Part shown: positions 7,630-59,813 of the stretch, one piece after another
Numbering within the stretch: the stretch's first letter is position 1
How the letters are laid out: every line of letters starts with the position of its first letter
DNA from: Roseiterribacter gracilis
GTDB lineage: Bacteria > Pseudomonadota > Alphaproteobacteria > BOG-932 > Roseiterribacteraceae
NCBI GenBank assembly: GCA_018332375.1
Contig: BOPV01000001.1
Span: 1,798,001-1,862,000 of the forward strand
Length of the DNA stretch: 64,000 nucleotides
Direction of reading: 5' to 3'
The notes under the pieces: model-generated
Databases searched by the model: none
Seen by the model: the letters and a program-made list of their open reading frames with translations, nothing else
Told to the model about the DNA's origin: nothing
Translations under genes and position numbers: made by a program

Positions 7630-7638
7630 CGACGCGGC

Positions 7639-7672
7639 GGTGACGCCGGTGTGAATTGACGCCGGCTTCACC
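7639..7672 (+). terminator. hairpin after typA, without a T-tract
   Basis: GGTGACGCCGG at 7639-7649 pairs with CCGGCTTCACC at 7662-7672 with one mismatch across a 12-base loop, starting ten bases after the typA stop. The lack of a U-run makes intrinsic termination uncertain. It may be a 3' stabilising hairpin or part of a Rho-dependent end. Confidence 0.35.
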
Positions 7673-7679
7673 ACCTCCG

Positions 7680-7694
7680 TTTAGCTCTCATTAA
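7680..7694 (+). promoter_or_regulatory. CtrA-like TTTA-N7-TTAA motif upstream of chemoreceptor gene 1
   Basis: The 15-bp sequence TTTAGCTCTCATTAA lies 56 bp before the ATG of the chemoreceptor gene at 7751. It matches the TTAA-N7-TTAA CtrA consensus except for one base in the first half. The same pattern, TTTAGC-N2-TCATTAA, occurs upstream of the second chemoreceptor gene at 20895. CtrA control of chemotaxis genes is known in alphaproteobacteria; binding here is inferred. Confidence 0.45.
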
Positions 7695-7709
7695 GCCGGC
7701 CAGGGTCCG

Positions 7710-7742
7710 CTCCGTGTGCGTCCGCAAATGCGGCACACGGAG
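7710..7742 (+). promoter_or_regulatory. hairpin covering the Shine-Dalgarno of chemoreceptor gene 1
   Basis: CTCCGTGTGC at 7710-7719 is complementary to GCACACGGAG at 7733-7742, giving a 10-bp stem with a small inner CCGC/GCGG pairing. The 3' arm contains the start of the GGAGGGG ribosome-binding site for the ATG at 7751. Folding would hide the Shine-Dalgarno, so this is a candidate translational control element. Confidence 0.45.
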
Positions 7743-7750
7743 GGGCCCAC

Positions 7751-9778: not shown

Positions 9779-9963
9779 GCGGGCCGCACCCGCCGCGCCG
9801 CATCCATTCCACGCGGCCTTTCTGCGCTTGGGCGGAAGGGTCGCGTCCGGATTCTGGGTCAGGCCGCGAAACCCACTGGCTGCGCCGTGAGTTTGCCATA
9901 GAGTGCGGCCATTCAGGCGGGTCCCCGCCCCCTCCAAGTTCCGACTCCGAGTTCGTTTTTAAG

Positions 9964-42701: not shown

Positions 42702-43589
42702 ATGGATTGGGACAAGCTCCGTATCTTCTACGCCGTCGCTGAGGCGGGAAGCTTCACGCATGCTGGCGAAACGCTGAACCTCAGCCAATCGGCAGTCAGC
42801 CGTCAGATCGGCGCGCTCGAAGACAGCCTCAAAGTGCCGCTGTTTCATCGCCACGCGCGCGGTCTGATTCTGACCGAGCAGGGCGAGGTGCTTCACCGCA
42901 CTGCAAAAGACGTCTTCGCCAAGCTGGCGATGACCGAAGCGCTACTCACCGAAGGCAAAATGAAGCCCAAGGGCGTGCTGAAGGTCACGACCACGTTTGC
43001 CTTCGGCACAACGTGGCTGACGCCGCGCCTGCGCGAATTCCTCGACCTGTATCCCGACATTTGCCTGACGTTGCTGATCGACGATCGTCAACTCGATCTC
43101 GCGATGCGCGAAGCCGACGTCGCGATCCGGATGACGCCGCCGAAGCAGCCCGATCTGATTCAGCGTCACCTGACGACGCTGCACATGAAGATCTGCGCGT
43201 CGAAGGACTACATCGCGCGAAACGGCATGCCGAAGTCGTTGGACGAGTTGAAGGACCATCGCGTCATCGGCTTTCCGTCCAATATGCAAATGCCTTTTCC
43301 GCACGCCAACTGGCTGCTCGAAACGGCGAAATTGGAATCGGAAAGCCCCAACACGCTTCTCGTTTCGAACATGTACGCGATCTTTCGCGCCGTCGAAGCG
43401 GGCATCGGCATTGCGGCGCTGCCAGACTTCCTGACCAACGGTCAGGAACAATTCGTACAAGTTTTGCCCGACGTTCCGGGCCCGACTGTCGATGCGTTCT
43501 TTGTGTACGCAGAAGAACTGCGTCACTCAAAACGCATCGCAGTGTTGCGCGACTATCTGATCGAAAAGGTCAGCAAGTTCGGATTTTGA
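42702..43589 (+). CDS. LysR family transcriptional regulator
   Basis: A 295-residue LysR-type regulator. The HTH is at residues about 2-60 (MDWDKLRIFYAVAEAGSFT, LNLSQSAVSRQIGALE) and an effector-binding domain follows. It lies 109 bp downstream of trxB on the same strand, an arrangement common in alphaproteobacteria, and may respond to redox state or regulate trxB. The effector is unknown. A small-RNA candidate begins about 60 bp after its stop. Confidence 0.92.
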   Translation: MDWDKLRIFYAVAEAGSFTHAGETLNLSQSAVSRQIGALEDSLKVPLFHRHARGLILTEQGEVLHRTAKDVFAKLAMTEALLTEGKMKPKGVLKVTTTFAFGTTWLTPRLREFLDLYPDICLTLLIDDRQLDLAMREADVAIRMTPPKQPDLIQRHLTTLHMKICASKDYIARNGMPKSLDELKDHRVIGFPSNMQMPFPHANWLLETAKLESESPNTLLVSNMYAIFRAVEAGIGIAALPDFLTNGQEQFVQVLPDVPGPTVDAFFVYAEELRHSKRIAVLRDYLIEKVSKFGF

Positions 43590-45860: not shown

Positions 45861-46583
45861 TTAGCGCGCCGTCCAACCGCCATCCACTTTGAGGCTGGTG
45901 CCGGTCACCATCGCCGACTCGTTCGAGACGAGAAAGCGAACCGCAGCCGCGATTTCTTCGTCCCGTGCAAGACGTCCAAGCGGGATCTGATCGAGGACCA
46001 AGGCGCGAAACGCAGGATCTTCCAGCATCGGACGGGTCAGCGGCGTGTCGACAAAGGTTGGCGCAACCGAGTTCACACGTATCTTCTGCGGTGCAAGCTC
46101 GACCGCCATCGCCTTGGTCAAGCCTTCGATCGCGTGTTTCGTCATACAGTAAACGGTGCGGTTGGCGGCGCCGACATGGCCCATCTGCGACGACATATGC
46201 ACGATCGACCCGCCGCGTCCGCTGCGTTCGATCGCAGCCGCTGCGGCGCGCGCGACCCGATAGGCGGCACGCACGTTGAGCGCCAGCATCCAGTCCAGCG
46301 TCGCATCGTCGACGTCGCGCATCGGCCGCGGCGCGTTGCCGCCTGCATTGTTCACCAGCGCATCGAGCCGCGGCAGTGAAGCAATCATGTCAATCGTAGC
46401 GTCGCTGCAAACGTCGCCCGGAACCGGCACGATCTGCTGCGACCGTTCGGCGGCAAGCTGCGCCAGCTCATCGCCGCTGCGGGCCAAGGCGAGAACGCGC
46501 ATACCGGCATCGGCCAGCGCAAGCGCGCAGGCGCGCCCGATCCCCCGGCCCGCACCGGTTACCAGTACTGTCGCGATCTCCAA
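45861..46583 (-). CDS. SDR family oxidoreductase of the LacI-controlled locus
   Basis: A 240-residue classical short-chain dehydrogenase: TGAGRGIG cofactor loop, NNAGG, catalytic Ser in HMSSQ and YCMTK (YxxxK), and a closing [13 protein letters not shown]. FabG-like enzymes of this kind oxidise a secondary alcohol or reduce a ketone with NAD(P). It is transcribed divergently from the first HisD-like gene, and the palindromic operator at 46611-46624 lies between them, 28 bp from its ATG. It is therefore counted as a member of the LacI regulon. Substrate unknown. Confidence 0.9.
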
Positions 46584-46610
46584 GCTCGTTTACCCCGCAC
46601 AATGGCGCGT

Positions 46611-46624
46611 TGCATTCGAATGCA
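46611..46624. promoter_or_regulatory. LacI-type operator, copy 1 (TGCATTCGAATGCA)
   Basis: A perfect 14-bp palindrome with a central CG, in the 87-bp divergent region between the SDR gene and the first HisD-like gene. Its TTGCAT can serve as a -35, with TAGCGT 17 bp downstream as a poor -10 toward the HisD-like gene. Identical copies occur at 55749, 56017 and 58508. Confidence 0.8.
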
Positions 46625-46670
46625 GTCTCGCCTAGCGTCCGGCTCCTGCGCAAGATCGGAGACGGAAAAG

Positions 46671-47960
46671 ATGGCGGTCCGGTATCTCAAGACGGGCAAA
46701 GCGGCCGACGAACAGGCCCAAGACGATGCTGCCGTGCGAAGCACGGTCGAAGCCATCTTGGCCGAGATCGCAAAAGACGGCGACGCAGCGTTGCGGCGCT
46801 ATAGCACCAAATTCGACGGCTGGTCGCCGCAGGAATTTCGCCTGACCCGCGCCGAGATCGACGCGTGCTATGCGGCGCTGCGTCCGCAGGACATCGAGGA
46901 CATCAAATTTGCGCAGGTGCAGGTGCGCCGCTTTGCCGAGCATCAACGCGCCGCGCTGCGCGACATTGAAGTCGAAACCCTTCCCGGTGTCGTGCTTGGA
47001 CATAAGAACCTACCGGTGAACTCGGTCGGCTGCTACGTCCCGGGCGGAAAATATCCGCTGGTGGCCAGCGCACATATGAGCGTCGTGACTGCGAAAGTTG
47101 CAGGCGTGAAGCGTGTCGTCGCGATGGCACCACCGTTCGAAGGCAAGCCTGCGCCCGCCATCGTCGTCGCCATGGATCTCGCCGGCGCCGACGAAATCTA
47201 TGCGCTGGGCGGCGTGCAGGCTGTTGGCGCCATGGCGCTCGGCACCGGGACAATTGCGCCCGTCGACATGATCGTCGGTCCTGGTAACGCTTTTGTCGCC
47301 GAGGCGAAGCGTCAGCTGTTCGGGCGAATCGGCATCGATCTGCTTGCAGGGCCGACCGAAACGCTGGTGATTGCCGACGACAGCGTCGATGGCGAAATCT
47401 GCGCTGCCGACCTTCTCGGTCAGGCCGAGCACGGCCCCAACAGTCCTGCCGTACTGCTGACCGACAGTGAGAAGCTGGCGCGCGACACGATGCGCGAAGT
47501 CGAACGTCAGTTGACCGTACTGCCGACGGCGGCCGTCGCGGGCAAGGCGTGGGCCGACTACGGCCAAGTCATCGTCTGCGACACCCGCGACGAGCTGATT
47601 GCAGTCGCCGACGAAATTGCGAGCGAGCATGTGCAGGTGATGACGCGCGATCCGGACGAGTTTCTTGCTCGTATGACCAATTACGGTGCGCTGTTCCTGG
47701 GGGTCGAAACCAACGTCGCGTACGGCGACAAAGTAATCGGCACCAACCACACGCTGCCGACGCGCAAGGCGGCGCGCTACACCGGAGGCCTGTGGGTGGG
47801 CAAGTTTATCAAGACCTGCACCTATCAGCGGGTCACGCGCGAAGCCTCGGCGATGATCGGCGAGGTCTGCTCGCGGCTGTGCGCGCTCGAAGGGTTTGCG
47901 GGCCATAAGGAACAGGCCGACATCCGTGTCCGCCGCTACACCGGCAAGAACGCGGCGTAA
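46671..47960 (+). CDS. HpsN-type dehydrogenase (histidinol dehydrogenase family), paralog 1
   Basis: A 429-residue zinc-dependent NAD dehydrogenase of the histidinol dehydrogenase family, which oxidises an alcohol through an aldehyde to an acid. The zinc and catalytic residues are retained (GQAEH, ASEH, GDK before GTNHTLPT, and the C-terminal GHKE). The segment after GTNHTLPT reads [12 protein letters not shown], which is typical of sulfopropanediol dehydrogenase HpsN rather than true HisD. No other his gene is near. ATG at 46671 has GGAGACGG upstream. It is followed by the LacI gene on the same strand. The actual substrate is unknown; a sulfonate is one possibility. Confidence 0.88.
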
Positions 47961-48065
47961 GCATCGGCGCGCTCGGCCCAGCCGGCGCACGTCAACGCAT
48001 TGCGGCGCCCGGCGGCTTGGTATAGCGCTGCTCTATGGATCGGCACGACAGATTGGCGCGCAGGC

Positions 48066-49166
48066 ATGCCGGGCAAGCCGCCTAAAACCGGGCGCAAGCC
48101 GGCGGGCTCACGCCGTCGCGCCGTTGCAGCGGCAGCGCAGCCCGCGGCCCCACAAATCAGCGACCGCCGCCGCGTCACCTCCTACGACGTCGCCAAGCGC
48201 GCCGGCGTTTCACAATCCGCCGTTTCGCGCTGCTTTACCGAAGGTGCCAGCGCGTCGAGCGACCTGCGCGAAAAAGTCATGCGCGCCGCCGAAGAGCTGG
48301 GATATCGCCCGAACGCGATCGCCCGCGGTCTGATCACGCGGCGCTCGAACCTGGTCGCGGTGGTGATTTCGAGCCGCACCAACCTCTACTACCCAGAAGT
48401 TCTTTTCGAACTAACCACGCGCTTTGAAGCGCGCGGCTCGCGCGTGCTTTTGTTCGCGCTCGAGCACGAAAGCGACGTCGATCACGTACTCGACAAGGTG
48501 TTCTCGTACCAGGTCGACGGCGTTGTCGCAGCCGCGCGTCTATCCGATGCGCAGGTCGTACAGTTCGAACGGCACGGTATTCCCGTCGTGCTCTACAATC
48601 GTTTTGCCGACCGCGCCCCCGCCAGTTCCGTCTGCTGCGACCATCTCGAATATGGCCACCGCCTGGCCGAACGTCTGGTTGCGGCCGGACATAAAAGCTT
48701 CGGCATCATCGACTCGCCCGCCGACAGTTTTGTCGGCATCGAGCGGATCAAAGGTGTGCGCGGCGTGCTGAAGGCGCACGGCTTCGACGCGCCCTCGGTT
48801 CGCGGCGACTACGGCTATGAGAGCGGCGGTACGGCGCTTGCCGAACTGTTGAAGAAAACACGCAAGCGTCCAGCCGCAGTGATCTGCGCCAACGACGCGA
48901 TGGCGCTGGGCGCAATCGATTATGCGCGCAACGAGCTTGGCCTCGAGATTCCGAAGCAGCTTTCGATCGTCGGCTTCGACGGTATCGGCCCGGCCTATCT
49001 CGCGGCCTATCGGCTGACGACGGTGCGCCAACCGGTGCGGCGCATGACCGAAGCAGCCGTGTCAATGTTGATGGAGCGCATCGAAGATCCGACGCTGGCG
49101 CCTGAGAAGCGCATGTTCTCGGGCGACCTGGTCGAAGGCGCGTCGGCGCGGCTGGGTCCGGCTTGA
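48066..49166 (+). CDS. LacI family transcriptional regulator, likely regulator of the locus
   Basis: A 366-residue LacI/GalR regulator. After a 35-residue Ala/Pro/Lys-rich extension comes the HTH (VTSYDVAKRAGVSQSAVSR) and hinge helix (YRPNAIARGL), then a periplasmic-binding-protein-like ligand domain with ICANDAMALGAIDYARN and IVGFDGIGPAYL. The tetramer or dimer would bind the TGCATTCGAATGCA palindromes of this locus, which have the central CG usual for LacI operators. ATG at 48066 is preferred; a TTG at 48000 is in frame. It follows the HisD-like gene by about 105 bp, so the operator at 46611 would make it autoregulated. The effector would be the pathway substrate or an intermediate. Confidence 0.9.
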   Translation: MPGKPPKTGRKPAGSRRRAVAAAAQPAAPQISDRRRVTSYDVAKRAGVSQSAVSRCFTEGASASSDLREKVMRAAEELGYRPNAIARGLITRRSNLVAVVISSRTNLYYPEVLFELTTRFEARGSRVLLFALEHESDVDHVLDKVFSYQVDGVVAAARLSDAQVVQFERHGIPVVLYNRFADRAPASSVCCDHLEYGHRLAERLVAAGHKSFGIIDSPADSFVGIERIKGVRGVLKAHGFDAPSVRGDYGYESGGTALAELLKKTRKRPAAVICANDAMALGAIDYARNELGLEIPKQLSIVGFDGIGPAYLAAYRLTTVRQPVRRMTEAAVSMLMERIEDPTLAPEKRMFSGDLVEGASARLGPA

Positions 49167-49948
49167 CCGCGGGCGCTGATTCCCACGCGAGCTTTCGCGT
49201 CCGACTGCGCGCCGGCGAACGTCTTGTGGGCACGTTTCTCAAGACGCCGTCGCCGATCATCTGCGAAGTGCTGGGCCTTTCGCCGCTCGACGTTGTCTGC
49301 ATCGACGCCGAACACGCGCCGTTCGATCGCCTCGCGATCGACGGCTGCGTCGCAGCGCTGCGCGCAGCGTCACGACCCAGTTTGGTGCGGGTTGCGAGTC
49401 AGGCGCCCGAACATCTGCTGAACGCGCTCGATTGCGGCGCCACCGGCGTCGTCGTTCCGCACGTCGCCGACGTGACCACCGTGCGCGAGATTGCGCGCCT
49501 GACGCAGTACGGTCGCGCCGGCCGAGGTTATGCCGGTTCCAGCCGCGCCGCTTCCTACACGACCAAGACAATGGCAACGCATCTCGCCGACAGTGCGCGC
49601 GACACGACCGTGATCGCGCAGATCGAAGATTTCGAAGCGCTCGACGTCATCGACGACATCGCCCAGGCCGCAGTCGCTTCTGGGCTCGACGCGCTGTTCA
49701 TCGGGCGCGCCGATCTGGCGGTCGCACTGGGCGCTTCAAGCGCCAGCGATCCCGTCGTGCTGGACGCGGCGCGCCGCATCTGTGCGGCCGGACGCAGCGC
49801 GGGAATTGCGATCGGTACATTCGTGCCGGCCCTGACCGAAGTGCCGCAATGGATCGAGCAAGGCGTGTCGTTGTTCTTGCTCGCGTCCGACCATGCGTTT
49901 TTGTTGCAGGGCGCAGCTTCGCTCGCGGCCAACGTCCGTTCGGCCTAG
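49163..49948 (+). CDS. HpcH/HpaI-type aldolase
   Basis: A 261-residue class II aldolase of the HpcH/HpaI family (4-hydroxy-2-oxo-acid aldolases releasing pyruvate or glyoxylate). Landmarks are GTFLKTPSPIICEVLG, the catalytic histidine region CIDAEHAPFD, SLVRVAS (arginine), GRAGRGYAGSSRAASY, QIEDFEALD (metal Glu) and FIGRADLAVALG (metal Asp). The start is TTG at 49163, overlapping the LacI stop (TTGA), so regulator and aldolase are co-translated. It would do the C-C cleavage of the pathway. The stop shares CTAG with the convergent hydrolase stop. Confidence 0.9.
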   Translation: MTAGADSHASFRVRLRAGERLVGTFLKTPSPIICEVLGLSPLDVVCIDAEHAPFDRLAIDGCVAALRAASRPSLVRVASQAPEHLLNALDCGATGVVVPHVADVTTVREIARLTQYGRAGRGYAGSSRAASYTTKTMATHLADSARDTTVIAQIEDFEALDVIDDIAQAAVASGLDALFIGRADLAVALGASSASDPVVLDAARRICAAGRSAGIAIGTFVPALTEVPQWIEQGVSLFLLASDHAFLLQGAASLAANVRSA

Positions 49949-50640
49949 GACCGCGCCAGCCAACCCGCGAATGCGTCGGTCACGATCTCGGGCGCTTCCA
50001 GCGTCGAGAGATGGCCGCATCGCGGCACGATCTGCAGCACGGACCCCGCAATCGCATCCGCCATCTCCCGCTGCAGCGACGGCGGGCATAGCGTATCGCT
50101 GTCACCGCCCAGTACTAGGGTTGGCACCGCAATTTCGGTCAACAACGCGCGGCTGTCGGTGCGCGAAGCGAGGGCGCGCGACTGGCGTGCAAACACCTCC
50201 GCGCCGAGATCGCGGGCCATCGCCAGCACGGTCGATTTCAAGCGTTCGTTGCGCATCGAGTCCGGATGCAGGTAGCGCGGTTTCAGCTCACCCACCAGCA
50301 TCGCATCGAGCTCGCCGCGCAACGCACGGTCGATCTGCGCTGCACGGTCGAGCACGCGATCTGGGCCGGCGTTGCTGTCGAGCAGCGCCAAGCGCGTGAC
50401 CCGTTCCGGCGCCTGACGCCAGATTTCCAGCGCAACGACGCCGCCCATCGAAAGTCCGGCGACTGCAAACCGCGGTGGCGCGGTGGCGAGCGCGCGGCAC
50501 GCCATCCCGGCAATCGTGTCGTCATGCGTCAGATCCGCGACGCGCACCGGGACGCGCGCCGCCAGCGCCGTCATCTGCGGTGCAAACAGGCGCGCGTCAC
50601 ACAACGTGCCGGGCAACAGCAACAGCTCGTCGTGCGGCAT
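49945..50640 (-). CDS. alpha/beta hydrolase
   Basis: A 231-residue alpha/beta-hydrolase fold enzyme. The nucleophile S64 is in GLSMGG, the acid lies in VLGGDSDTLCPP and the histidine in PRCGHLSTLE. It resembles enol-lactonases and C-C or ester hydrolases such as PcaD relatives. ATG at 50640 lies seven bases after the stop of the MetE-like gene, so these genes are one operon. It probably opens a lactone or cleaves an ester in the pathway; the substrate cannot be named. Confidence 0.88.
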   Translation of the reverse strand: MPHDELLLLPGTLCDARLFAPQMTALAARVPVRVADLTHDDTIAGMACRALATAPPRFAVAGLSMGGVVALEIWRQAPERVTRLALLDSNAGPDRVLDRAAQIDRALRGELDAMLVGELKPRYLHPDSMRNERLKSTVLAMARDLGAEVFARQSRALASRTDSRALLTEIAVPTLVLGGDSDTLCPPSLQREMADAIAGSVLQIVPRCGHLSTLEAPEIVTDAFAGWLARS

Positions 50641-50647
50641 GCCGCGA

Positions 50648-51802
50648 TCAGGCCGCCTGCCGCCACAGACGTTCGCTGGCAATGGCAGCGCCCTCGACCA
50701 GCGACGCAAGTTTGGCGAACGCGATCTCGGGATGCACCGTCCCAAAACCTGCAAAAGTCGAGAAGCCGCAATCGCTGCCGGCAATGACGCGTTCGCGCCC
50801 AACCACCGAAGCGAACCGTTCAATCCGTTCCGCCACCAGCTGCGGATGCTCCACGAAGTTCGTCGTCGAATCGAGCACGCCCGGTATCAGCACCACGTCA
50901 TCTGGCACCTGCACGCGCGTCCAGCTCGCCCATTCATGCGCATGGCGCGGATTGGCACCCTCGAACGACAGACCGCCGGCCTTGAGCTTCAGCAGTGTCG
51001 GCAGAATACGCTCGAGTTCGATATCGCAATGGTGCGGGCCTTCGTAATTGCCCCAGCAGACGTGGACGCGCACCTGAGCTTTCGGCACCGCGACAAGTGC
51101 AGCGTTCAACACTTCGATATGCCGCTCAATGCGAACCAGGAACGCGGCCTCGCTGCGATCCTTGAACATCATGTGGCGCCCCAGCGCGAGATCCGGACTG
51201 TCGATCTGCACGACCAGCCCGGCGCGTGCGATCGCCTCGTATTCGACCCGCATCGCGGCGGCGATCGCGTCGAGATAGGCGTCGTCGTCGGGATAGAATT
51301 CGTTGGGTTGGAACAAGGCGATCACGCCGGGCGCAGCGGCGTTCATGAATGCGTCGGGCGATGGGGTCGCGTCGAGGGCGGCGCGGAAGCGGCGCAAATC
51401 GGCCTCCAGCGGCGCCATCGTCTTGACTGCGATCGGTCCGACGCAACGCGGCCGTGCGTAGCTCGGCGTTCCGCCTGTCTTGGCCGCACGTCCCATGAAG
51501 TCGGGATAGGCTTCGAGATCGGCGGGTACGCGCCGCGGGCTGTCGCCTTCGAAGCCGGTGAGACGGTGGCGAATGTAGGTCGCGTAGCTGATCTTCGACA
51601 TTTCGCCGTCGCTGACCGTGTCGATGCCGACATCCCGCTGACGCCGTACAATTTCGCGCGTTGCTTTGCCGACCACGATTTCGAATTCTGCCGGGTCCAG
51701 TGGATCGCCGCGCTCTTCGGCAAACAGCAGGTCGGTAACGTCGGCAGGCCGCGGCAGACTGCCGACATGCGTCGTCAGGATACGATCACGACTGATCAGC
51801 AT
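50648..51802 (-). CDS. MetE-like zinc alkyltransferase (cobalamin-independent methionine synthase II family)
   Basis: A 384-residue barrel protein corresponding only to the C-terminal catalytic half of cobalamin-independent methionine synthase. The zinc ligands H247, C249 and C345 are in HVC and SDCGF. TTHVGSLPRP at the N-terminus and SDGEMSK are family marks. Half-size members include epoxyalkane:coenzyme M transferase, which activate a thiol on zinc for alkyl transfer. The full MetE N-terminal half is absent, so ordinary methionine synthesis is unlikely. Its start overlaps the end of the MFS gene by 17 bp, so it is in the same operon. Thiol acceptor and alkyl donor are unknown. Confidence 0.85.
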   Translation of the reverse strand: MLISRDRILTTHVGSLPRPADVTDLLFAEERGDPLDPAEFEIVVGKATREIVRRQRDVGIDTVSDGEMSKISYATYIRHRLTGFEGDSPRRVPADLEAYPDFMGRAAKTGGTPSYARPRCVGPIAVKTMAPLEADLRRFRAALDATPSPDAFMNAAAPGVIALFQPNEFYPDDDAYLDAIAAAMRVEYEAIARAGLVVQIDSPDLALGRHMMFKDRSEAAFLVRIERHIEVLNAALVAVPKAQVRVHVCWGNYEGPHHCDIELERILPTLLKLKAGGLSFEGANPRHAHEWASWTRVQVPDDVVLIPGVLDSTTNFVEHPQLVAERIERFASVVGRERVIAGSDCGFSTFAGFGTVHPEIAFAKLASLVEGAAIASERLWRQAA

Positions 51803-53081
51803 GGTGGTCTCCGAATACGCGCCGGCCCGGCAATCGTGGGCGCGGATGGGTCTCAGGCAACGCCAGCCAAAGCAAGCCGGCCAGGATGAAAATGACGCTC
51901 GATACCGCCATGGCCGCACCAAGCCCGACCGCGCTCGCGAGCGAGCCGGTAAGAATGGGTGCGAAGAAACTGACGACGCGTCCCCAGTTGAAAATCGACG
52001 CTGCCGTCGATTTGAGATGCGCCGGATAGAGCTCAGTCAGCCACGGGCCCCAGATCACGCTGGCCGACAGCATGAAGCCATACAGCGCGCCGATCGGGCC
52101 CAACAACCGTACATCCGACGGCACCAGCAGGTACGCCGCGATCGAAGCGGCGCCGCCAAAAAATCCCAGCGCATTGAAACGGCGTCCGAAGCGATCGCCG
52201 GCCCAGCCCCAAAAAAATCCACCGGCAATGTTGGCCGCGAAGGTCCACGCGACGAGCGAACCGATGGCGGACGACGACAGGCCGCGCACGTCGTTGAGAT
52301 ACGTCGTCAGCCAGCCGCTGAACGCCTGATAAGCAAAGAAATTAAGCCCCATCAATGCCGCGAGCATCGTCGTTTGCAACGCAAGGCCTGGGCGAAACAG
52401 GTCGAGAACTGGCAGGCGCCTGGGCTGCCGCATCGCGACGTTGCGTGTCTCAGCCGTACCCGGGACGATCAAGTAGGCGAGCAGCGATAGCAGGATCGGC
52501 GGCACGCCGCCGATCCAAAGCAGCACGTGCCAGCTTGTCCCCTCGCCGACCGGCAGCAGCCGCACCGCAAGACCAAGCGCGATCACCGCGACGCCGAACA
52601 CTGCGTTGATCATGCTGGCGAGCTTGCCGCGCACATTGTTGGGAAACAGCCCGACATAGATTCCGACGACAATCGGGAAGACGCCGCCCATGAACAAGCC
52701 AAGCACGAAACGCTGCGCCAGCAATTGGCCGTAACTGTCGACCGCGACGCCGGCAAGCAGGCTGAGCCCGTAGCCGATCATCACGGCGACCAGCATGTTG
52801 CGCCGACCGAAACGGTCGGCGAGCTGCCCGATCACGATGGCGCCAAGCAACGCGCCCGCACCTTGTGCCGAATAGCCCGAACCCGCTTCGGTGAGCGTCA
52901 AGCCGAGACTGTCGCGAATATAGGGGCGCAGTACGTCGACCGAATTCCACGCGAAGCTGTAAAAAAACTCGGCGACCAGCAGAAACGCGAACGCGGTGAC
53001 CGCGCGGCCCAGCGACGGATATGTCGGGATGGCGCCGATTTCGTCGCGACCTTCGCTGCGCGCCGGCGCGCCTACGCTCAT
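51786..53081 (-). CDS. MFS transporter of the LacI-controlled locus
   Basis: A 431-residue, twelve-segment major-facilitator protein. GQLADRFGRRNML is the MFS loop signature, WNSVDVLRPYIRDSLGL lies in the first segment and WGWAGDRFGRR in the second half. It resembles aromatic-acid and sugar-acid:H+ symporters. ATG at 53081 has GGAG six bases upstream. It heads the MFS - MetE-like - hydrolase operon and is the inner-membrane partner of the TonB receptor encoded just upstream on the same strand. Substrate unknown. Confidence 0.88.
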   Translation of the reverse strand: MSVGAPARSEGRDEIGAIPTYPSLGRAVTAFAFLLVAEFFYSFAWNSVDVLRPYIRDSLGLTLTEAGSGYSAQGAGALLGAIVIGQLADRFGRRNMLVAVMIGYGLSLLAGVAVDSYGQLLAQRFVLGLFMGGVFPIVVGIYVGLFPNNVRGKLASMINAVFGVAVIALGLAVRLLPVGEGTSWHVLLWIGGVPPILLSLLAYLIVPGTAETRNVAMRQPRRLPVLDLFRPGLALQTTMLAALMGLNFFAYQAFSGWLTTYLNDVRGLSSSAIGSLVAWTFAANIAGGFFWGWAGDRFGRRFNALGFFGGAASIAAYLLVPSDVRLLGPIGALYGFMLSASVIWGPWLTELYPAHLKSTAASIFNWGRVVSFFAPILTGSLASAVGLGAAMAVSSVIFILAGLLWLALPETHPRPRLPGRRVFGDHHADQS

Positions 53082-53161
53082 GTCGGGCTCCGTGCCGCTG
53101 CAACGATGCGTCTGCGCTGACAGACTGCGTGCTGCTTTGTACGCCGCTTGCGTCCGGGACA

Positions 53162-53195
53162 AAAATGCATCGCGCCGGGGAGACCGGCGCGATGC
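53162..53195 (-). terminator. intrinsic terminator after the TonB receptor gene
   Basis: A perfect 12-bp stem, GCATCGCGCCGG (53167-53178) and CCGGCGCGATGC (53184-53195), with a five-base loop. On the minus strand it is followed by ATTTTTG. It lies about 60 bp after the TonB receptor stop and 80 bp before the MFS gene. Confidence 0.85.
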
Positions 53196-53206
53196 GAGGG
53201 ATGCCC

Positions 53207-53241
53207 GGCGCGTGGTGACTGGGGAAAGGTCACCACGCGCC
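53207..53241 (-). other. 13-bp stem-loop after the TonB receptor gene
   Basis: GGCGCGTGGTGAC (53207-53219) and GTCACCACGCGCC (53229-53241) form a perfect 13-bp stem with a nine-base loop, directly after the TonB receptor stop and before the terminator. It has no U-run and may stabilise the 3' end of the receptor mRNA. Confidence 0.75.
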
Positions 53242-53252
53242 GTTGTGGGGCA

Positions 53253-55655
53253 TCAGAAGCGAGCGCCGAAGCGCGCGCCATACAGGCTGGGCGGGCCGTA
53301 CGAGGTTTGCACGCGCGCGCTGCTGCCCAACGTCGCGGCGTAAAGGACGGCTTTGTCGCCGACATTTTCGCCGAAGACTTCGACATAGAACTTGTCCGAC
53401 TTTTCCGTCCAGCGCAGCCCGAGATCGACGAGCACGTAGGATGTCTGCTTGTCGAGCACGGTGTTGTAGTCGGCTGCGTAATACGCCGACGAATAGAGCA
53501 GGTTGCCGCGCGGCGTCAGCATGCCGGCCGCACCGAGGTCGAAATCATAGGACGCGCTGAGCGTGCCCTTGAACTTCGGCGACATCGGCACGCGCTTACC
53601 CGAAAGATCGACAGTCACGCCATCGTCACCACCGGCGACATGGAACGCGTTCGGCCGCACATACTGCGTGAATTTGGCGTCGAGCAACGTTGCCGTCAGG
53701 CCAAGATGCAGATTGGCGACCGGAACAAATTTCATTTCGGCTTCGACACCGCGGCTGCGCGCGGCACCGGCGCTCTGCGTGTAGGATAGGTTGGTGATAC
53801 GATCGAGAATCGTGATCTGGAGGTTCTTGTACTCGTTGTCGAACACGCTGAGATCAAGCGACAAGCGGCCACCGAGCCAGCGGCTCTTGCTGCCGATTTC
53901 ATACGCGGTGACGGTCTGCGGATTGTACGAATTCGGGATCAATGCGTTCGAGGCGTTGTTGTTGAAGCCGCCCGACTCATAGCCCGTCGAAATCGTCGAG
54001 TAGAGCATCGTCTCGGGCGTCAGATTGAATTCAGCGCCAACACGGAACGTCGCCTTGCTGAACGATGGCGCGCCATTTGCGACCTGCGCCGTCTGCGTCG
54101 TGAAGTCTTCCGTGCCTGGCGACGCGGTCTGGTTGGTGATGCCGAACGTCTTCGTGTCGCTCGAATAGCGAACGCCGCCGATCAGGCGCAGCGTGTCCGG
54201 AATGAGCGCGAACGTCGCCTGGCCGTAGCCGGCGTAAGACTCAGTCTGCAGGCTGACGCGCGAACGCGTGCTGCGCAGATTGGCCGGGACCGCGCTGGGT
54301 GCGGTGTAGACTTGGCGATAATATTCGAGAACCCGGTCGCGGAAATAATAGCCGCCGACGATCCATTGCAGCCGGTCTTTGCCGGTCGAGGCGAGCTGCA
54401 GTTCCTGGCTGAACGCGCTGTCCATCGTGTTCTGCGCCTGGTAGCCCGAGCCCGTGAAGCCGGTATTGACGACACCGGGCGCGGGAAACACGACGCTGGT
54501 CTGGTCGAGGTCGGCGCTGCGATCGACGCCGAATGAATTATAGCCCGTGATCGATTTCAGCGCGACCGGGCCGAAATCGTAGCTCACCTGCGCGGTGAGG
54601 TAGCGCTCGTGCAGCCGCTCATACGGGTTGTAGTCCCACTGGTTTGTGTAGGGGTCAGTGTTGACCGGTACGCCCGCATCCACACCAGCCACAAAAGCCG
54701 TGCCGTTATGGACCGTCGGGTTGACGTAGACCGGCACACCGTTGACCGAACGCAGACCGGTCGCAGGATTGATCAAGGTGCCGCTGACGCGCGAAGCAAA
54801 GGCGCCGCCGCCATGATCTTTGCGCTCCCAATAGGCGCCGCTGAGATCGATCTGCAGCGCGTCGGTCGGCTTGAAGCGCGCGCTGAGACGGACCGCATTC
54901 TGGTCTTCGTCCTGCAGCTCGATGCTCGGATTGGTGGTCGAACGCGTATAGCCGCTGTGCTCGATATGGTCGGCAGCGACGCGGAACTGCACCTTTTCAT
55001 TGAGCGGCACGTTGATGAAGCCGTCGACCTGGCGCAGGTCGTAATTGCCGATCTGCGCGTTGACGCCGCCTTCGAATTCTTCGGTCGGGGCGTGCGTCAC
55101 GATGCTGACATTGCCGCCGAACGTGTTGCGGCCGTAGAGGGTGCCTTGGGGGCCGCGCTGCACTTCGACACGCGACAGGTCGAACAGCGGAAAGCTCTGC
55201 TGCGCGACGCGGCTCTGATAGATGCCGTCGATATAGAAGCCGATGACCGGATCCGACTGCACGCTGACAAGCTGCGTGCGCACGCCGCGGATCGCGGGGA
55301 AGAAGTCGGCGCCCTGCTTGCCGAAGCTGAGGCCCGGCGTCTCGTACTGGATACGGCTCATATCGGTGACGCGCAGCCGGCTGAGGTCGTCGGCGCCGAG
55401 CGCGGTCACGGCAAGCGGCACGTCACGCAGCCGCTCTTCGCGGCGCTGCGCCGTGACGATCACCTCCTCCACACCGGTCGGGCGCGCGGCCGCGGCGGTC
55501 GTGCTGCTGGTGACAGTTGCGGTGGTCGTGGTGGTGGTCGCGGTGCCTGCCGGCGCCGGCGCGCCTTCGCCTTCCGCTCTCGCGGTGGCAGACGACAACG
55601 CGATCGTGATGGCGATCGCGGAAACGCCGGTTCGGCAAATGGTACGCGCGCGCAT
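53253..55655 (-). CDS. TonB-dependent outer-membrane receptor
   Basis: An 800-residue TonB-dependent receptor. A signal peptide (ends near ATARA) is followed by a Pro/Ala/Thr-rich stretch, a TonB-box-like EEVIVTAQRREE, and the plug domain (IRGVRTQ, FYIDGIYQSR, VEVQRGPQGTLYGRNTFGG). The 22-strand barrel ends in a terminal phenylalanine (YGARFGARF). There is no N-terminal STN signalling domain, so no sigma/anti-sigma loop. It imports the substrate, presumably something too large or scarce for porins. The promoter holds LacI-type operator copy 2 between its -10 and -35 regions. No siderophore genes are nearby, so a carbon source is favoured over iron. Confidence 0.93.
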   Translation of the reverse strand: MRARTICRTGVSAIAITIALSSATARAEGEGAPAPAGTATTTTTTATVTSSTTAAAARPTGVEEVIVTAQRREERLRDVPLAVTALGADDLSRLRVTDMSRIQYETPGLSFGKQGADFFPAIRGVRTQLVSVQSDPVIGFYIDGIYQSRVAQQSFPLFDLSRVEVQRGPQGTLYGRNTFGGNVSIVTHAPTEEFEGGVNAQIGNYDLRQVDGFINVPLNEKVQFRVAADHIEHSGYTRSTTNPSIELQDEDQNAVRLSARFKPTDALQIDLSGAYWERKDHGGGAFASRVSGTLINPATGLRSVNGVPVYVNPTVHNGTAFVAGVDAGVPVNTDPYTNQWDYNPYERLHERYLTAQVSYDFGPVALKSITGYNSFGVDRSADLDQTSVVFPAPGVVNTGFTGSGYQAQNTMDSAFSQELQLASTGKDRLQWIVGGYYFRDRVLEYYRQVYTAPSAVPANLRSTRSRVSLQTESYAGYGQATFALIPDTLRLIGGVRYSSDTKTFGITNQTASPGTEDFTTQTAQVANGAPSFSKATFRVGAEFNLTPETMLYSTISTGYESGGFNNNASNALIPNSYNPQTVTAYEIGSKSRWLGGRLSLDLSVFDNEYKNLQITILDRITNLSYTQSAGAARSRGVEAEMKFVPVANLHLGLTATLLDAKFTQYVRPNAFHVAGGDDGVTVDLSGKRVPMSPKFKGTLSASYDFDLGAAGMLTPRGNLLYSSAYYAADYNTVLDKQTSYVLVDLGLRWTEKSDKFYVEVFGENVGDKAVLYAATLGSSARVQTSYGPPSLYGARFGARF

Positions 55656-55748
55656 GATTTCTCCCGTTTTTTACATTCCAGCCGAGCGTTGCGGCTTCAC
55701 CCTGTGGCCGGACGCTATCAAGCCGCCCCCAACCCGTCCATAATTTTA

Positions 55749-55762
55749 TGCATTCGAATGCA
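55749..55762. promoter_or_regulatory. LacI-type operator, copy 2
   Basis: TGCATTCGAATGCA, exact, 94 bp upstream of the TonB receptor ATG. On the minus strand it is directly followed by TAAAAT, a good -10, so a bound repressor would block the receptor promoter. Confidence 0.8.
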
Positions 55763-55918
55763 AGTACAACCAAGGCGTGCTCCAGGATTCGTCGGAAGCG
55801 CTCTATATGGCCGGAATCGCTTGTCAGACTGGGAGTTTGTCGTCGCCTCCAGTGCGAACCGTTCGCGACAAGTCGTAGCGCTGAACCCTACAATCGCGCC
55901 GAATTCCCGCGAATCGGA

Positions 55919-55932
55919 TGCCTCCGAATGCA
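55919..55932. promoter_or_regulatory. degenerate LacI-type operator
   Basis: TGCCTCCGAATGCA matches 12 of 14 positions of the palindrome; the right half-site is exact. It lies between the exact copies 2 and 3 and could be an auxiliary site. Confidence 0.45.
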
Positions 55933-56016
55933 CGTTTCTTCCGAAGGTTTGCGGTGCAGCGGCGATTGCCGGTGAGAAACTCGTCGCGCCTGCGACGCTC
56001 GCCACCGCGTGACATC

Positions 56017-56030
56017 TGCATTCGAATGCA
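56017..56030. promoter_or_regulatory. LacI-type operator, copy 3
   Basis: TGCATTCGAATGCA, exact, 54 bp upstream of the ATG of the second HisD-like gene. It sits between GTGACA and TAAGCA, which are spaced 17 bp, as a possible promoter spacer. Confidence 0.8.
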
Positions 56031-56083
56031 ATAAGCAACAGCGTTGCTTTGCTCGACGACGGATCATCAGGAGGATTGCAGGA

Positions 56084-57376
56084 ATGGCCACTGTCAGCGC
56101 GCCGGAGTCGATTGTCGCCCGCCTTGCCTATGTGAAGGCACCGACGCGCGACCAGATCGCCGACAACAGCCAGGTGGTTGCGACCGTGACCGCGGTGCTG
56201 AAGGACGTGCGCGAGCGCGGCGACGCAGCGGTGCGCGAGTACGCCAAGAAGTTCGATGGCGCCGAACTCGACCGGTTCGAAGTCAGCGCCGTCGATCGGC
56301 AGAGGGCGGTCGACGAACTCGACGTGCAGACGCGTTCGGACACTGAATTCGCGATCGCCAACGTGCGCCGCTTTGCCGAGGCGCAGCTATCGACGATCCA
56401 GCCGCTTGAGATCGAACCCTATCCGGGTCTCCATCTCGGCCATCGCGTCATTCCGATCCAACGAGTCGGTGCGTACGTGCCGGGCGGGCGCTTTCCGCTT
56501 CTGTCGGCGCCGATCATGACCATCGTGCCGGGGAAGGTCGCAGGTTGCGACGAGGTCGTGGCGTGTCTGCCGCCCAACGCGCACCGGGCGATGATCGCCG
56601 GCTGCCATCTTTCCGGCGCCGATCGCATTTTTCTGATCGGCGGCGCGCAGGCGGTTGCTGCGATGGCCTACGGCACCGAAACGGTGCCGCAGGTGCATAA
56701 GATCATGGGACCGGGCAACGCGTTCGTGAATGAAGCCAAACGCCAGGTCTTCGGTCCCGTTGGCATCGATCAGCTTGCCGGTCCGTCGGAAATTTTCGTG
56801 GTCGCAGATGCAAGCGGCGATCCCGAATTGATTGCGGCCGACCTGCTCGGTCAAGCCGAACACGACGTGCGCACGCGCGTCGGTCTGATCACGACCGATC
56901 GTGCGCTTGCCGAGGCGACGCTGGCCGAAGTCGAACGCCAATTGAACGTGCTCGCGACTGCCAAGGTCGCCGAACTGTCGTGGCGCGACTACGGCGAGAT
57001 CGTCGTGTGCGACGATGAAGCAGCGATGATCGCCTATTCCGATCACGTTGCGGCCGAACATCTGCAAGTGCACACCAAAGACCCGCATGGCTTCGGCGCC
57101 AAGCTGCGCAACTACGGCTCGCTGTTCATCGGGCGTAACGCAAGCGTGGTCTATTCCGACAAGAATGTCGGCACCAACCACACGCTGCCGACGATGGGGG
57201 CTGCGAAATATACCGGCGGTCTGTGGGTTGGATCGTACGTGAAGATTGCCACCCACCAATGGCTCGAGGACAAGGCAATCCGCGTCGTCGCGCCGCCTGC
57301 GATCCGCCAAAGCGACAGCGAAGGACTTGAAGGACACCGCAAGGCTGCGGAGATCCGTCTGCGACGTCTCGGCTGA
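56084..57376 (+). CDS. HpsN-type dehydrogenase (histidinol dehydrogenase family), paralog 2
   Basis: A 430-residue second member of the histidinol dehydrogenase family in the locus. The catalytic set is kept (GQAEHD, AAEH, SDK before GTNHTLPT, and GHRKAAE at the end), and the TGGLWVGSYVK stretch places it with HpsN-like catabolic enzymes. It differs substantially from paralog 1, so the two are probably not redundant; they may oxidise different alcohols or successive steps. GGAGG lies nine bases before ATG 56084, and operator copy 3 lies just upstream. A bidirectional terminator separates it from the cupin gene. Confidence 0.88.
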   Translation: MATVSAPESIVARLAYVKAPTRDQIADNSQVVATVTAVLKDVRERGDAAVREYAKKFDGAELDRFEVSAVDRQRAVDELDVQTRSDTEFAIANVRRFAEAQLSTIQPLEIEPYPGLHLGHRVIPIQRVGAYVPGGRFPLLSAPIMTIVPGKVAGCDEVVACLPPNAHRAMIAGCHLSGADRIFLIGGAQAVAAMAYGTETVPQVHKIMGPGNAFVNEAKRQVFGPVGIDQLAGPSEIFVVADASGDPELIAADLLGQAEHDVRTRVGLITTDRALAEATLAEVERQLNVLATAKVAELSWRDYGEIVVCDDEAAMIAYSDHVAAEHLQVHTKDPHGFGAKLRNYGSLFIGRNASVVYSDKNVGTNHTLPTMGAAKYTGGLWVGSYVKIATHQWLEDKAIRVVAPPAIRQSDSEGLEGHRKAAEIRLRRLG

Positions 57377-57395
57377 ACCCGGCGCGCAGGAAATG

Positions 57396-57431
57396 AAAAA
57401 ACGCACCTGGCTCAGGCCGGTGCGTTTTTTT
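57396..57431. terminator. bidirectional terminator between HisD-like paralog 2 and the cupin gene
   Basis: AAAAAACGCACC (57396-57407) pairs with GGTGCGTTTTTT (57419-57430) across an 11-base loop. The A-run and T-run serve the two converging genes on opposite strands. Confidence 0.92.
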
Positions 57432-57452
57432 GTCGGTGCCGAACGCGCTGCG

Positions 57453-58472
57453 TCAGTTGAAGGTCGGCAGGCTCGGATTTTCCGTACCGCGCACGACAAA
57501 TACGACGGTACGGGCAGACGACGTGTTGCGAAATGAATGCGGCAGACCAACCGGCACGGTCATCGTATCGCCCGGTCCCATCACGATCGAACCGTCTTCC
57601 CAGCCCACTTCGAGCACGCCTTCATGAACGAACAGCACTTCGACTTCCCGCCGGCTGTGGCGCGGAACGAAGGCGCCGGATTGCAGCGTCAGCTGACGCA
57701 GGTTGAAATCATGCGGCCACCAGCCTGTGATCGGTCCGGGCTCGAACCGGTCTGAGGTGCGTTGCGGCACGATCACGCCCGCCTCTTCGACGCCGTCGCC
57801 CGCCAACGCCGACTGCGGGTTCGCCACCGCAGAACCGTAGACGACAACGCATTCCCGCAGCTTCTCGAGCGGCGGTGTCTTTAGCGACGCGAGCTTGTCG
57901 GCATCGGCGACGTCTTCGAGTTCGACGTCTTTCAACACATAGTCGCCCTGCGACGTGTCGATCAGACGGCCGCCGCGCGCAAGGCGCATTCCGTTTTCGG
58001 CCGCGGCTTCGAGGACGGCCGGCGCCCACACGACTTTGCCGGGATCGTCCTGGCCGAGGACGAAGAAGATGAAGCCTTTCCCGTCGTCGATCTTTTCAAA
58101 GCCGCGAAACATGTGGGTCGGCGCCGACATCACGTCGCCCGGTCCGACCTCGATCGAACCGTCTTCACGATTGGGGCCGAACAGCAGGCGCCAGCGGCCC
58201 GAATGCACGACGAAGACTTCAGCGGTATCGTGACTGTGTTGCGAGTTGATGCAGCCGAACGGCTGGCGTGCCCCGCCGATGTTGAAGCCATGCTTCTCGG
58301 CGATGTGGACGTGCTGGTCTGCGTTCTCAGACACGCCGGGCCCGATGATGGTGAAGTTTTCCTTCTCGGTCGAACCCGGTGTCTTGGTATCGACAAAGGC
58401 AGTCCGGCACGGGATGAGGTCCGCATAACGGACGAGCCGCCGGTTCAAATCGTCGAGGCTCCATCGTGTCAC
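57453..58472 (-). CDS. bicupin protein (gentisate-dioxygenase-like)
   Basis: A 339-residue protein with two cupin domains. The first (about residues 70-130) has a full metal motif, HSHDTAEVFVVHSG, and a later histidine in APTHMFRGF. The second (about 255-325) keeps HSRREVEVLFVHEG and PVGLPHSFRN but lacks the HxH pair, so it may bind metal poorly or serve structurally. The layout recalls gentisate 1,2-dioxygenase and related bicupins, yet ring cleavage is not shown. It is divergent from the SnoaL-like gene, with operator copy 4 between them, 36 bp from its ATG. Isomerase or dioxygenase activity is possible. Confidence 0.85.
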   Translation of the reverse strand: MTRWSLDDLNRRLVRYADLIPCRTAFVDTKTPGSTEKENFTIIGPGVSENADQHVHIAEKHGFNIGGARQPFGCINSQHSHDTAEVFVVHSGRWRLLFGPNREDGSIEVGPGDVMSAPTHMFRGFEKIDDGKGFIFFVLGQDDPGKVVWAPAVLEAAAENGMRLARGGRLIDTSQGDYVLKDVELEDVADADKLASLKTPPLEKLRECVVVYGSAVANPQSALAGDGVEEAGVIVPQRTSDRFEPGPITGWWPHDFNLRQLTLQSGAFVPRHSRREVEVLFVHEGVLEVGWEDGSIVMGPGDTMTVPVGLPHSFRNTSSARTVVFVVRGTENPSLPTFN

Positions 58473-58507
58473 GGCAACTGCTCCAATCTGGGGCCCGCAT
58501 CCTAACT

Positions 58508-58521
58508 TGCATTCGAATGCA
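58508..58521. promoter_or_regulatory. LacI-type operator, copy 4
   Basis: TGCATTCGAATGCA, extended to a 16-bp palindrome TTGCATTCGAATGCAA at 58507-58522, in the 198-bp divergent region between the cupin and SnoaL-like genes. TTGCAT-N17-CTAAAT reads toward the SnoaL-like gene; TAGGAT on the other strand is a possible -10 for the cupin gene. Confidence 0.8.
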
Positions 58522-58670
58522 AAACCCAGCTAAATCATCCGCGGGCCGTGCGCAAGGCGCATCTGCACGTCGATCTGAAGTGCCGATGCGAACGAAGCGT
58601 TTAGGCCAGCAATCAGCGGTCGTGCAATTCCGGCGCGTCATGCACACTACTGCCAGGGTCAGGAGAAACG

Positions 58671-59813
58671 ATGAGCTCCCAGAACAAAAGCGTGAGCATG
58701 GCCGGGCCGGCCACTGCCGATCCGCAGTCCGACGATTCGCGCGCGGTCTTGCAGGTCGAGCGCCGCGATTTCACCCAGCTGGTTCCTGAGAACCGCCCGC
58801 GCGTACAGCGCATGCGCGGCTTCGACGAGTGCTACACCGACATCGTCGACTACATCGTTCGCTGTACGCACCGTATCTGGGACGAACGGGACGTCGGGCT
58901 GATCTATACGCACTACACGCATAATTGCGTCGCCTACACGACGTTGGGCACGATGTACGATCGCGAGACCCACATCCGCGACACCATCCAGCGTCTCGTC
59001 GAAATGCCCGACCGGCGAGGCATGGCGCAACAGGTGATTTGGCGCGGCAACGACGTCGACGGTTTCTATACCAGCCACATGACGCACGGTATGGGACGCC
59101 ATACTGAATTTGGCGCCATGGGCAAACCGACCGGCCGCACCTTCGTGACGCGAACCGTCGCGGAGTGCATGATCCTCGAGAACAAGATCTACAAAGAGTG
59201 GATCGTTCGCGACAACATGGCCCAGCTGGTGCAGCTCGGCATCGAGCCGCACGCGTACGCGCAGGCAATTGCGCAGGCAAAATTCGCGCGCGGCGAAGAA
59301 GTGTTCGAGCTGTCAGAAAATCGTCGGTTGCTGGGCCAGTATCCGCCCGAGGCCGAAGCCGATGTTTCGATCGCCCATACCGATACCGAAGCGCAGCTGT
59401 TGCGCTGGCTGCATCACATCTACAACAAGCGCCTGTTCGGGAAGATCCGCGAGATCTACGCGTCGAACTGCCAATGGCACGGGCCGTTGATGCGCGAATT
59501 GCTGGGGCCGGCGGCCGTGCTGCAGCAGACGATGCGACTGGTTGCGCTGATGCCCGACTGCGCCTTCGTTCCGCAGCATGTCTGTTCGGTCGTCAGTGAA
59601 GAAGGCGGCGAAAAGATCGCGCTGCGCTGGACGCTCGACGGTCATCATTTCGGCTACGGTCCGCTGGGCGCGCCCACCGGCTACAAACTATCGGTCATGG
59701 GCGTCACCCACTTCCACATCATCGACGGAAAAATTGTCGACGAGTGGGTCGTCTATGACGAGTTGTCGATGCTGGTGCAGCTCAAACTCGCAGCACTGCA
59801 AGCGGCCAAGTAA
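58671..59813 (+). CDS. tandem SnoaL-like (NTF2-fold) protein
   Basis: A 380-residue protein made of two SnoaL/NTF2-like domains (about residues 45-190 and 225-375). Each ends with the same motif: KIYKEWIVRDNMAQLVQLG in the first, KIVDEWVVYDELSMLVQLK in the second, showing internal duplication. NTF2-fold enzymes include polyketide cyclases, dehydratases, isomerases and hydrolases; most are single domain. No signal peptide. GGAG lies nine bases before the ATG. It is under operator copy 4. A dehydration or isomerisation step is plausible, not shown. Confidence 0.85.
   Translation: MSSQNKSVSMAGPATADPQSDDSRAVLQVERRDFTQLVPENRPRVQRMRGFDECYTDIVDYIVRCTHRIWDERDVGLIYTHYTHNCVAYTTLGTMYDRETHIRDTIQRLVEMPDRRGMAQQVIWRGNDVDGFYTSHMTHGMGRHTEFGAMGKPTGRTFVTRTVAECMILENKIYKEWIVRDNMAQLVQLGIEPHAYAQAIAQAKFARGEEVFELSENRRLLGQYPPEAEADVSIAHTDTEAQLLRWLHHIYNKRLFGKIREIYASNCQWHGPLMRELLGPAAVLQQTMRLVALMPDCAFVPQHVCSVVSEEGGEKIALRWTLDGHHFGYGPLGAPTGYKLSVMGVTHFHIIDGKIVDEWVVYDELSMLVQLKLAALQAAK

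Follow-up and report, generated by a model that had tools for sequence, protein, structure and literature searches.

Four copies of one palindrome as predicted operators of a LacI-family locus in Roseiterribacter gracilis

A 64,000-nucleotide stretch of the Roseiterribacter gracilis genome (assembly GCA_018332375.1, contig BOPV01000001.1, positions 1,798,001 to 1,862,000; hereafter the window) contains a LacI-family regulator gene among genes for a short-chain dehydrogenase (SDR), two histidinol-dehydrogenase-family enzymes (HisD1 and HisD2), an aldolase, a TonB-dependent receptor, a bicupin and a SnoaL-like protein. A 14-bp palindrome, TGCATTCGAATGCA, recurs between these genes, which raises the question of whether it is the operator of the adjoining LacI protein and which genes it would govern. 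We assign a probability of about 0.88 to the reading that this protein binds the four exact copies as a dimer and represses six transcription units until a pathway compound releases it. The bound dimer would keep the units SDR, HisD1-LacI-aldolase, TonB receptor, HisD2, bicupin and SnoaL-like silent, release by the compound would turn the genes on, and LacI would be autoregulated through the HisD1 promoter.

Copies of the palindrome in the window and in related genomes

All four exact copies lie between divergent genes of the locus, and each of its three divergent intergenic regions (SDR/HisD1, TonB receptor/HisD2 and bicupin/SnoaL) carries at least one of them (Table 1). A weaker copy, TGCCTCCGAATGCA, matches at 12 of 14 positions. 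A preliminary description of this DNA had reported these five copies, their confinement to one locus with a LacI-family gene, their presence in every divergent intergenic region and the central CG, which is found in all four exact copies; each of these statements was confirmed. It had also named many copies elsewhere in the genome as a result that would speak against a regulon. Across 4,249,070 bases in 3 contigs, no place apart from these four matched with 0 or 1 mismatch. Thirteen more places have 2 mismatches, and within the locus only the weaker copy is among them. The chance expectation of a two-mismatch place in the gap between the TonB receptor and HisD2 is about 0.0013 (13 × 428 / 4.25 million), and for this reason the weaker copy is probably a real but weak site with a poor left half, possibly an auxiliary one. 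At 3 mismatches, the window contains 9 matches versus 4.35 expected in shuffles (standard deviation 2.09), and 1 of 100 shuffles reaches 9.

The distance from site centre to start codon (Table 1) falls within 30–140 bp for five of the six genes preceded by a site, an interval in which over 75% of the sites of LacI-family regulators lie (PMC4052901).

Sphingomonas, Novosphingobium, Niveispirillum and Lacimicrobium encode relatives of the LacI protein at 50–59% identity, within clusters of largely the same genes arranged differently; two Novosphingobium plasmids carry similar clusters. The preliminary description had suggested looking for the palindrome near orthologous LacI genes in related genomes, and this search was positive. 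The conservation set comprised 15 stretches (328,654 bases, window included) from 14 genomes whose LacI protein has Tyr at amino acid position (AA) 5. Two of the stretches, L139 and L140, are contigs of one genome, and L140, with the bicupin and one site, itself has no LacI gene. Sites were called with an operator model of half-sites TG, then CA/AC/AA, T, T/C, C. Of the 44 sites obtained, 41 were followed by the start of a cluster gene within 400 bp and 3 were not, and none lay inside cluster genes; because the model was fixed after the sites had been seen, the proportion 41/44 describes placement and is not an independent discovery. The operator is in this sense kept before the same genes in other genera, the property taken to mark a LacI-family local regulon. 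HisD2 had a site 42–62 bp upstream in all 8 of its copies, and HisD1 an upstream site in 10 of 12. No operator-model site was found in stretch L007. All 7 sphingomonad stretches have a site between HisD2 and LacI, and autoregulation is therefore implied in them.

Twenty further genomes were searched at up to 1 mismatch, 17 picked for a LacI relative and 3 as near kin without a close one. Matches occurred in 10 of them, at 30 places altogether: 27 in 8 genomes whose LacI has Tyr-5, and the other 3 in two genomes of Grimontia. Of the 27, 23 belonged to the LacI locus or the contig carrying it, 1 was before the bicupin gene on another contig (L140), 2 were on the contig of L006, 6.6 and 8.6 kb past the end of that locus, and 1 was elsewhere. 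At the same threshold there were no places in the genomes of L012, L013 and L016 or in G233, all four with a LacI relative of another kind, or in the near kin G004, G001 and G002, which have no LacI at an E-value of 1e-80. Among 82 Azospirillaceae genomes, 3 have this LacI, and 2 of these contain exact copies, versus 1 of the 79 without it (Fisher's test, p = 0.003).

Sphingomonas sp. NFR04 has three copies beyond the cluster genes, one exact and two with one mismatch (L137:1328, 8435 and 10490), neighboured by genes for a TonB receptor, two tryptophan-halogenase-like proteins and a cupin. These copies perhaps represent an extension of the regulon. A 642-aa frame beside one of them was considered as a clue to the substrate and rejected, being antisense to another long frame and having no family or structure match.

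LacI residues and operator bases

The regulator matches PF00356 (48.4 bits) and PF13377 (99.3 bits), both above cut-off, and has no close paralogue, its next best relative in the genome being 33% identical. Its residues are Tyr-5, Gln-15, Ser-16, Arg-20 (in AVSR), Leu-54 and Ile-55, with ARGL at 51–54; Tyr-5 is residue 40 of the protein. The half-site TGCATTC has G at nucleotide position (NT) NT-6 and C at NT-1. In the LacI recognition code of Camas et al. (2010, PMC2978694), Arg-20 pairs with G at NT-6, Leu-54 goes with a central CG, and NT-2 is correlated with AA-55, AA-15 and AA-5. The first rule is followed here by Arg-20 and the G of the half-site, and the second by hinge residues Ala-51 and Leu-54 and the CG at the centre of every exact copy. 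The published code treats the TVSR group, whereas the present regulator is AVSR. Together with a shift of NT-2 with AA-5, these rules support the assignment of the palindrome to the LacI protein.

The shift was followed in a survey of 82 different LacI genes from 97 loci, in which L060, a duplicate of L007, was dropped and L066 had no LacI. Thirteen LacI rows that do not fit the helix pattern were kept outside it (L018, L020, L021, L024–L028, L068, L111, L123, L130 and L133), and the partial matches L031–L054 were excluded from all site counts. Within 1.5 kb of the 82 genes, 33 sites matched TGCATNCGNATGCA at 11 or more of 12 positions (35 if L060 is counted), versus 0 to 2 sites (mean 0.67) for six permuted palindromes. 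Such a site accompanied 12/15 regulators with Gln-Ser, Leu-54 and Tyr-5, 10/23 with Gln-Ser, Leu-54 and another residue at AA-5, and 2/28 with Gln-Ser and Met-54; the remaining classes gave 0/10 (Arg-Ser), 1/3 (Gln-Ala) and 0/3 (others). The three Tyr-5 regulators without one all have a site with 10 of 12 matches.

In sites up to 12 kb from LacI, the NT-2 letters of Tyr-5 half-sites were T 55, C 12, G 5 and A 2 (37 sites, 12 loci) and those of half-sites with another AA-5 were A 32, G 10 and T 4 (23 sites, 15 loci), counts that are not independent because all 15 Tyr-5 rows form one clade (support 100/99) in a tree of 66 Gln-Ser regulators. For the same reason the AA-5/NT-2 change, though well placed, counts as a single event, and a Fisher value obtained for this association exaggerates its support. 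Next to the clade is L058, a Val-5 regulator with A in its site. More distant relatives (about 40–45% identity; Delftia, Sinorhizobium, Roseomonas, Pantoea and others) share Gln-Ser and Arg but lack Tyr-5, and their sites are TGCATACGTATGCA or near it. At the level of sequence, a palindrome with half-site TGCAT and a central CG is found near many Gln-Ser/Arg-20/Leu-54 regulators, its NT-2 base going with AA-5.

Two further observations concern other regulator classes. The Gln-Ser helix is retained in regulators with Met-54, and those of L012–L016 are also accompanied by some or much of the gene set. Copies of TGCACGCGCGTGCA lie just 5' of two more distant LacI relatives (L024:5485 and 5508; L025:9870), and this sequence is a candidate operator for another LacI class.

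Evidence for and against LacI-mediated repression

A number of observations weigh against repression of the whole locus by LacI. The preliminary description had joined all the genes named in the opening into one regulon, and this claim was supported, with limits: sites precede the SDR, HisD1, TonB receptor, HisD2, bicupin and SnoaL-like genes, while neither LacI nor the aldolase is directly preceded by an operator, and the two are counted as members because both follow HisD1 on the same strand. The genes for the major facilitator superfamily (MFS) transporter, the MetE-like protein and the alpha/beta hydrolase may be outside direct LacI control, since a strong minus-strand terminator precedes them and they lack an operator. 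The preliminary claim that all copies lie in or next to a plausible promoter spacer did not hold. When the flanks were shuffled 300 times, 34 to 295 of the shuffles equalled or exceeded the best hexamer pairs that overlap the exact copies, and a sigma-70 scan with strict settings over the three intergenic regions returned one promoter-like site (55865–55894), which overlaps no exact copy; alphaproteobacterial promoters may differ from this consensus. Promoter spacers, being no better than with shuffled flanks, were dropped as an argument for operators.

The comparative data also contain exceptions. No site with at least 11/12 matches was found within 1.5 kb of 3/15 Tyr-5, 13/23 other Leu-54 and 26/28 Met-54 Gln-Ser regulators. 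A purine occurs at NT-2 in Tyr-5 loci L008 and L007, the latter of which also encodes a further LacI whose AA-5 is Gln, and a pyrimidine in non-Tyr-5 loci L013, L064 and L110. All three one-mismatch places of the two Grimontia genomes are outside their LacI loci, which show none. The genomes of G455 and L007, which have a contig in common, and of L011 encode a Tyr-5 LacI and have no place at up to 1 mismatch, and one exact palindrome (L141:2773) occurs in the Azospirillaceae genome G398, which has no close LacI.

Three alternatives were weighed against the proposed repression. LacI could act at the sites as an activator or dual regulator instead of a simple repressor, which we regard as unlikely. 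Most local LacI-family regulators are repressors. The distances of 34–156 bp from the start codons would fit either mode, and a dual LacI-family regulator has been described (PMC4052901).

Still less probable is that the palindrome serves another regulator, encoded elsewhere, and that LacI merely adjoins it. The copy in G398 and the LysR-type gene of the window would agree with such a regulator, but the palindrome and LacI co-occur across genomes, and LacI is the sole transcription regulator listed among the 21 annotated features of the Novosphingobium cluster L062. The site also obeys LacI-specific residue rules and varies with the LacI subfamily, which again argues for LacI.

A repeat element or chance, conceivable for a short and self-complementary sequence, can practically be dismissed, as the four exact copies (about 0.016 expected in the genome for a given 14-mer, by arithmetic estimate) all lie within three intergenic regions with differing flanks, the palindrome is kept at matching places in other genera, and a reversed-letter control pattern gave 0 in every genome listed.

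Gene content, predicted pathway and known systems

The features of the locus are collected in Table 1.

Table 1. Features of the LacI-family locus, in window coordinates.
Feature	Position	Strand	Basis or remark
LysR-type gene	42702–43589		
Short-chain dehydrogenase (SDR)	45861–46583	-	Pfam/NCBIfam
Divergent intergenic region SDR/HisD1	46584–46670		
Predicted operator copy 1, TGCATTCGAATGCA	46611–46624		Exact match; between SDR (-) and HisD1 (+), start codons at 34 and 54 bp
HisD1, histidinol-dehydrogenase-family enzyme, probably not biosynthetic HisD	46671–47960	+	Pfam/NCBIfam and alignment
LacI-family regulator	48066–49166	+	PF00356 and Peripla_BP; further in-frame ATG at 48036
Helix-turn-helix codons of LacI (Tyr AA-5, Gln-Ser AA-15/16, Arg AA-20)	48174–48239	+	GalR numbering from PMC2978694
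HpcH/HpaI-type aldolase	49163–49948	+	Pfam/NCBIfam
Alpha/beta hydrolase	49945–50640	-	Pfam/NCBIfam
MetE C-terminal-like protein (Meth_synt_2)	50648–51802	-	Pfam/NCBIfam
MFS transporter	51786–53081	-	Pfam/NCBIfam
Intrinsic terminator between TonB receptor and MFS	53167–53195	-	12-bp stem, U run
TonB-dependent receptor	53253–55655	-	Pfam/NCBIfam
Divergent intergenic region TonB receptor/HisD2	55656–56083		
Predicted operator copy 2, TGCATTCGAATGCA	55749–55762		Exact match; 5' of TonB-dependent receptor, start codon at 100 bp
Weak copy, TGCCTCCGAATGCA	55919–55932		12/14 match; possible auxiliary site
Predicted operator copy 3, TGCATTCGAATGCA	56017–56030		Exact match; 5' of HisD2, start codon at 60 bp (nearest site)
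HisD2, histidinol-dehydrogenase-family enzyme	56084–57376	+	Pfam/NCBIfam and alignment
Hairpin with flanking A and T runs, convergent HisD2/bicupin	57395–57432		Likely bidirectional terminator; sequence and fold
Bicupin (GTG start)	57453–58472	-	Pfam/NCBIfam
Divergent intergenic region bicupin/SnoaL	58473–58670		
Predicted operator copy 4, TGCATTCGAATGCA	58508–58521		Exact match; between bicupin (-) and SnoaL-like gene (+), start codons at 42 and 156 bp
SnoaL-like protein, two SnoaL stretches	58671–59813	+	Pfam/NCBIfam

Judging from its gene content, the cluster would import and degrade a small hydroxylated organic compound, which would enter through the TonB receptor, and the two HisD-like enzymes would carry out an alcohol-to-acid oxidation. 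The genome has three histidinol-dehydrogenase-family genes, and the one with the top Histidinol_dh match lies outside the locus (C1:932277) and is probably the biosynthetic HisD. HisD1 and HisD2 score 462.7 and 439.4 with TIGR00069 (cut-off 243.8), and both are in a catabolic-type cluster; by this context they are probably not biosynthetic. Both score higher against chains of HpsN, the (R)-2,3-dihydroxypropane-1-sulfonate (DHPS) 3-dehydrogenase, than against histidinol dehydrogenases, and they retain the zinc-ligand and Glu-His catalytic positions (alignments read by eye). The HpsN motif G-R-Y-A/S-H ends in His126, which reads the sulfonate (PMC11382572). Unlike HpsN, HisD1 and HisD2 have Leu at this position (GKYPL and GRFPL), which argues that they are not DHPS enzymes; DHPS degradation was rejected as the pathway on this ground.

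Aldolases in 23 stretches (window included) were of the HpcH/HpaI type in 10 at 47% identity or more and in 1 at 26%, of the RraA type in 7 and of neither type in 5, several of them short. The presence of one or the other type in relatives points to a retro-aldol step, which the HpcH/HpaI-type aldolase would perform here. The two types interchange among otherwise similar clusters (L005–L016, L062–L074) and never occur together in one examined stretch. Where the window has a SnoaL-like protein and a separate alpha/beta hydrolase, many relatives (P0002–P0013), several of which carry the name Sphingomonas, have a single fused protein of about 580–650 residues. This fusion suggests that the two proteins perform linked steps.

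The MetE-like gene varies among the clusters. An amidase gene is present in all five sphingomonad stretches without it (17730–19058 in L062, compared with the MetE-like gene at 50648–51802 in the window), L009 has both genes, and L008, a short stretch, and the window have the MetE-like gene only. On an IncP-typed, conjugative plasmid of Delftia acidovorans (L069), HisD1, SDR and LacI lie together (6864–9999) with two copies of TGCATACGTATGCA upstream (6804–6843), and for this reason the module may move on broad-host-range plasmids.

By its features the locus would join the LacI-family local regulons, a known kind. As in those described by Ravcheev et al. (2014, PMC4052901), the site is an even palindrome with a central CG, mostly 30–140 bp upstream, the regulator gene lies within the controlled cluster, and autoregulation is likely; in contrast to them, the genes here are not a textbook sugar pathway. 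The terms histidinol, cupin and aromatic do not occur in the main text of that article. Relative to the code of Camas et al. (PMC2978694), in which AA-5 is likewise linked to NT-2, the present data show, over 60 sites and with exceptions, T/C going with Tyr-5 and mostly A/G with any other residue. The CytR octamer GTTGCATT (PMC3454398) resembles TTGCATT, which is present on at least one side of each copy here, but the inverted octamers of CytR are variably spaced and have the opposite orientation relative to the centre (printed as AATGYCAAC-GC-GTTGCATT), and LacI reaches 156 bits with the CytR equivalog NCBIfam model, versus a cut-off of 436. Kinship with CytR was rejected, as the half-site letters are similar but orientation and orthology differ. 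A literature search that left RegPrecise and subscription journals outside its scope found no paper with the motif, its variant or the gene set.

We lean, if only slightly, towards the broader view that a LacI subfamily in Alpha-, Beta- and Gammaproteobacteria governs an undescribed pathway with two non-biosynthetic, non-HpsN HisD-type enzymes and an exchangeable aldolase, and that Tyr at AA-5 alone switched the operator from TGCATACGTATGCA to TGCATTCGAATGCA. A unique operator with its likely regulator would provide a handle on a widespread cluster whose dehydrogenases are labelled as histidine biosynthesis in public records, and the link between AA-5 and NT-2 would allow a little-studied part of the LacI recognition code to be tested on naturally occurring variation.

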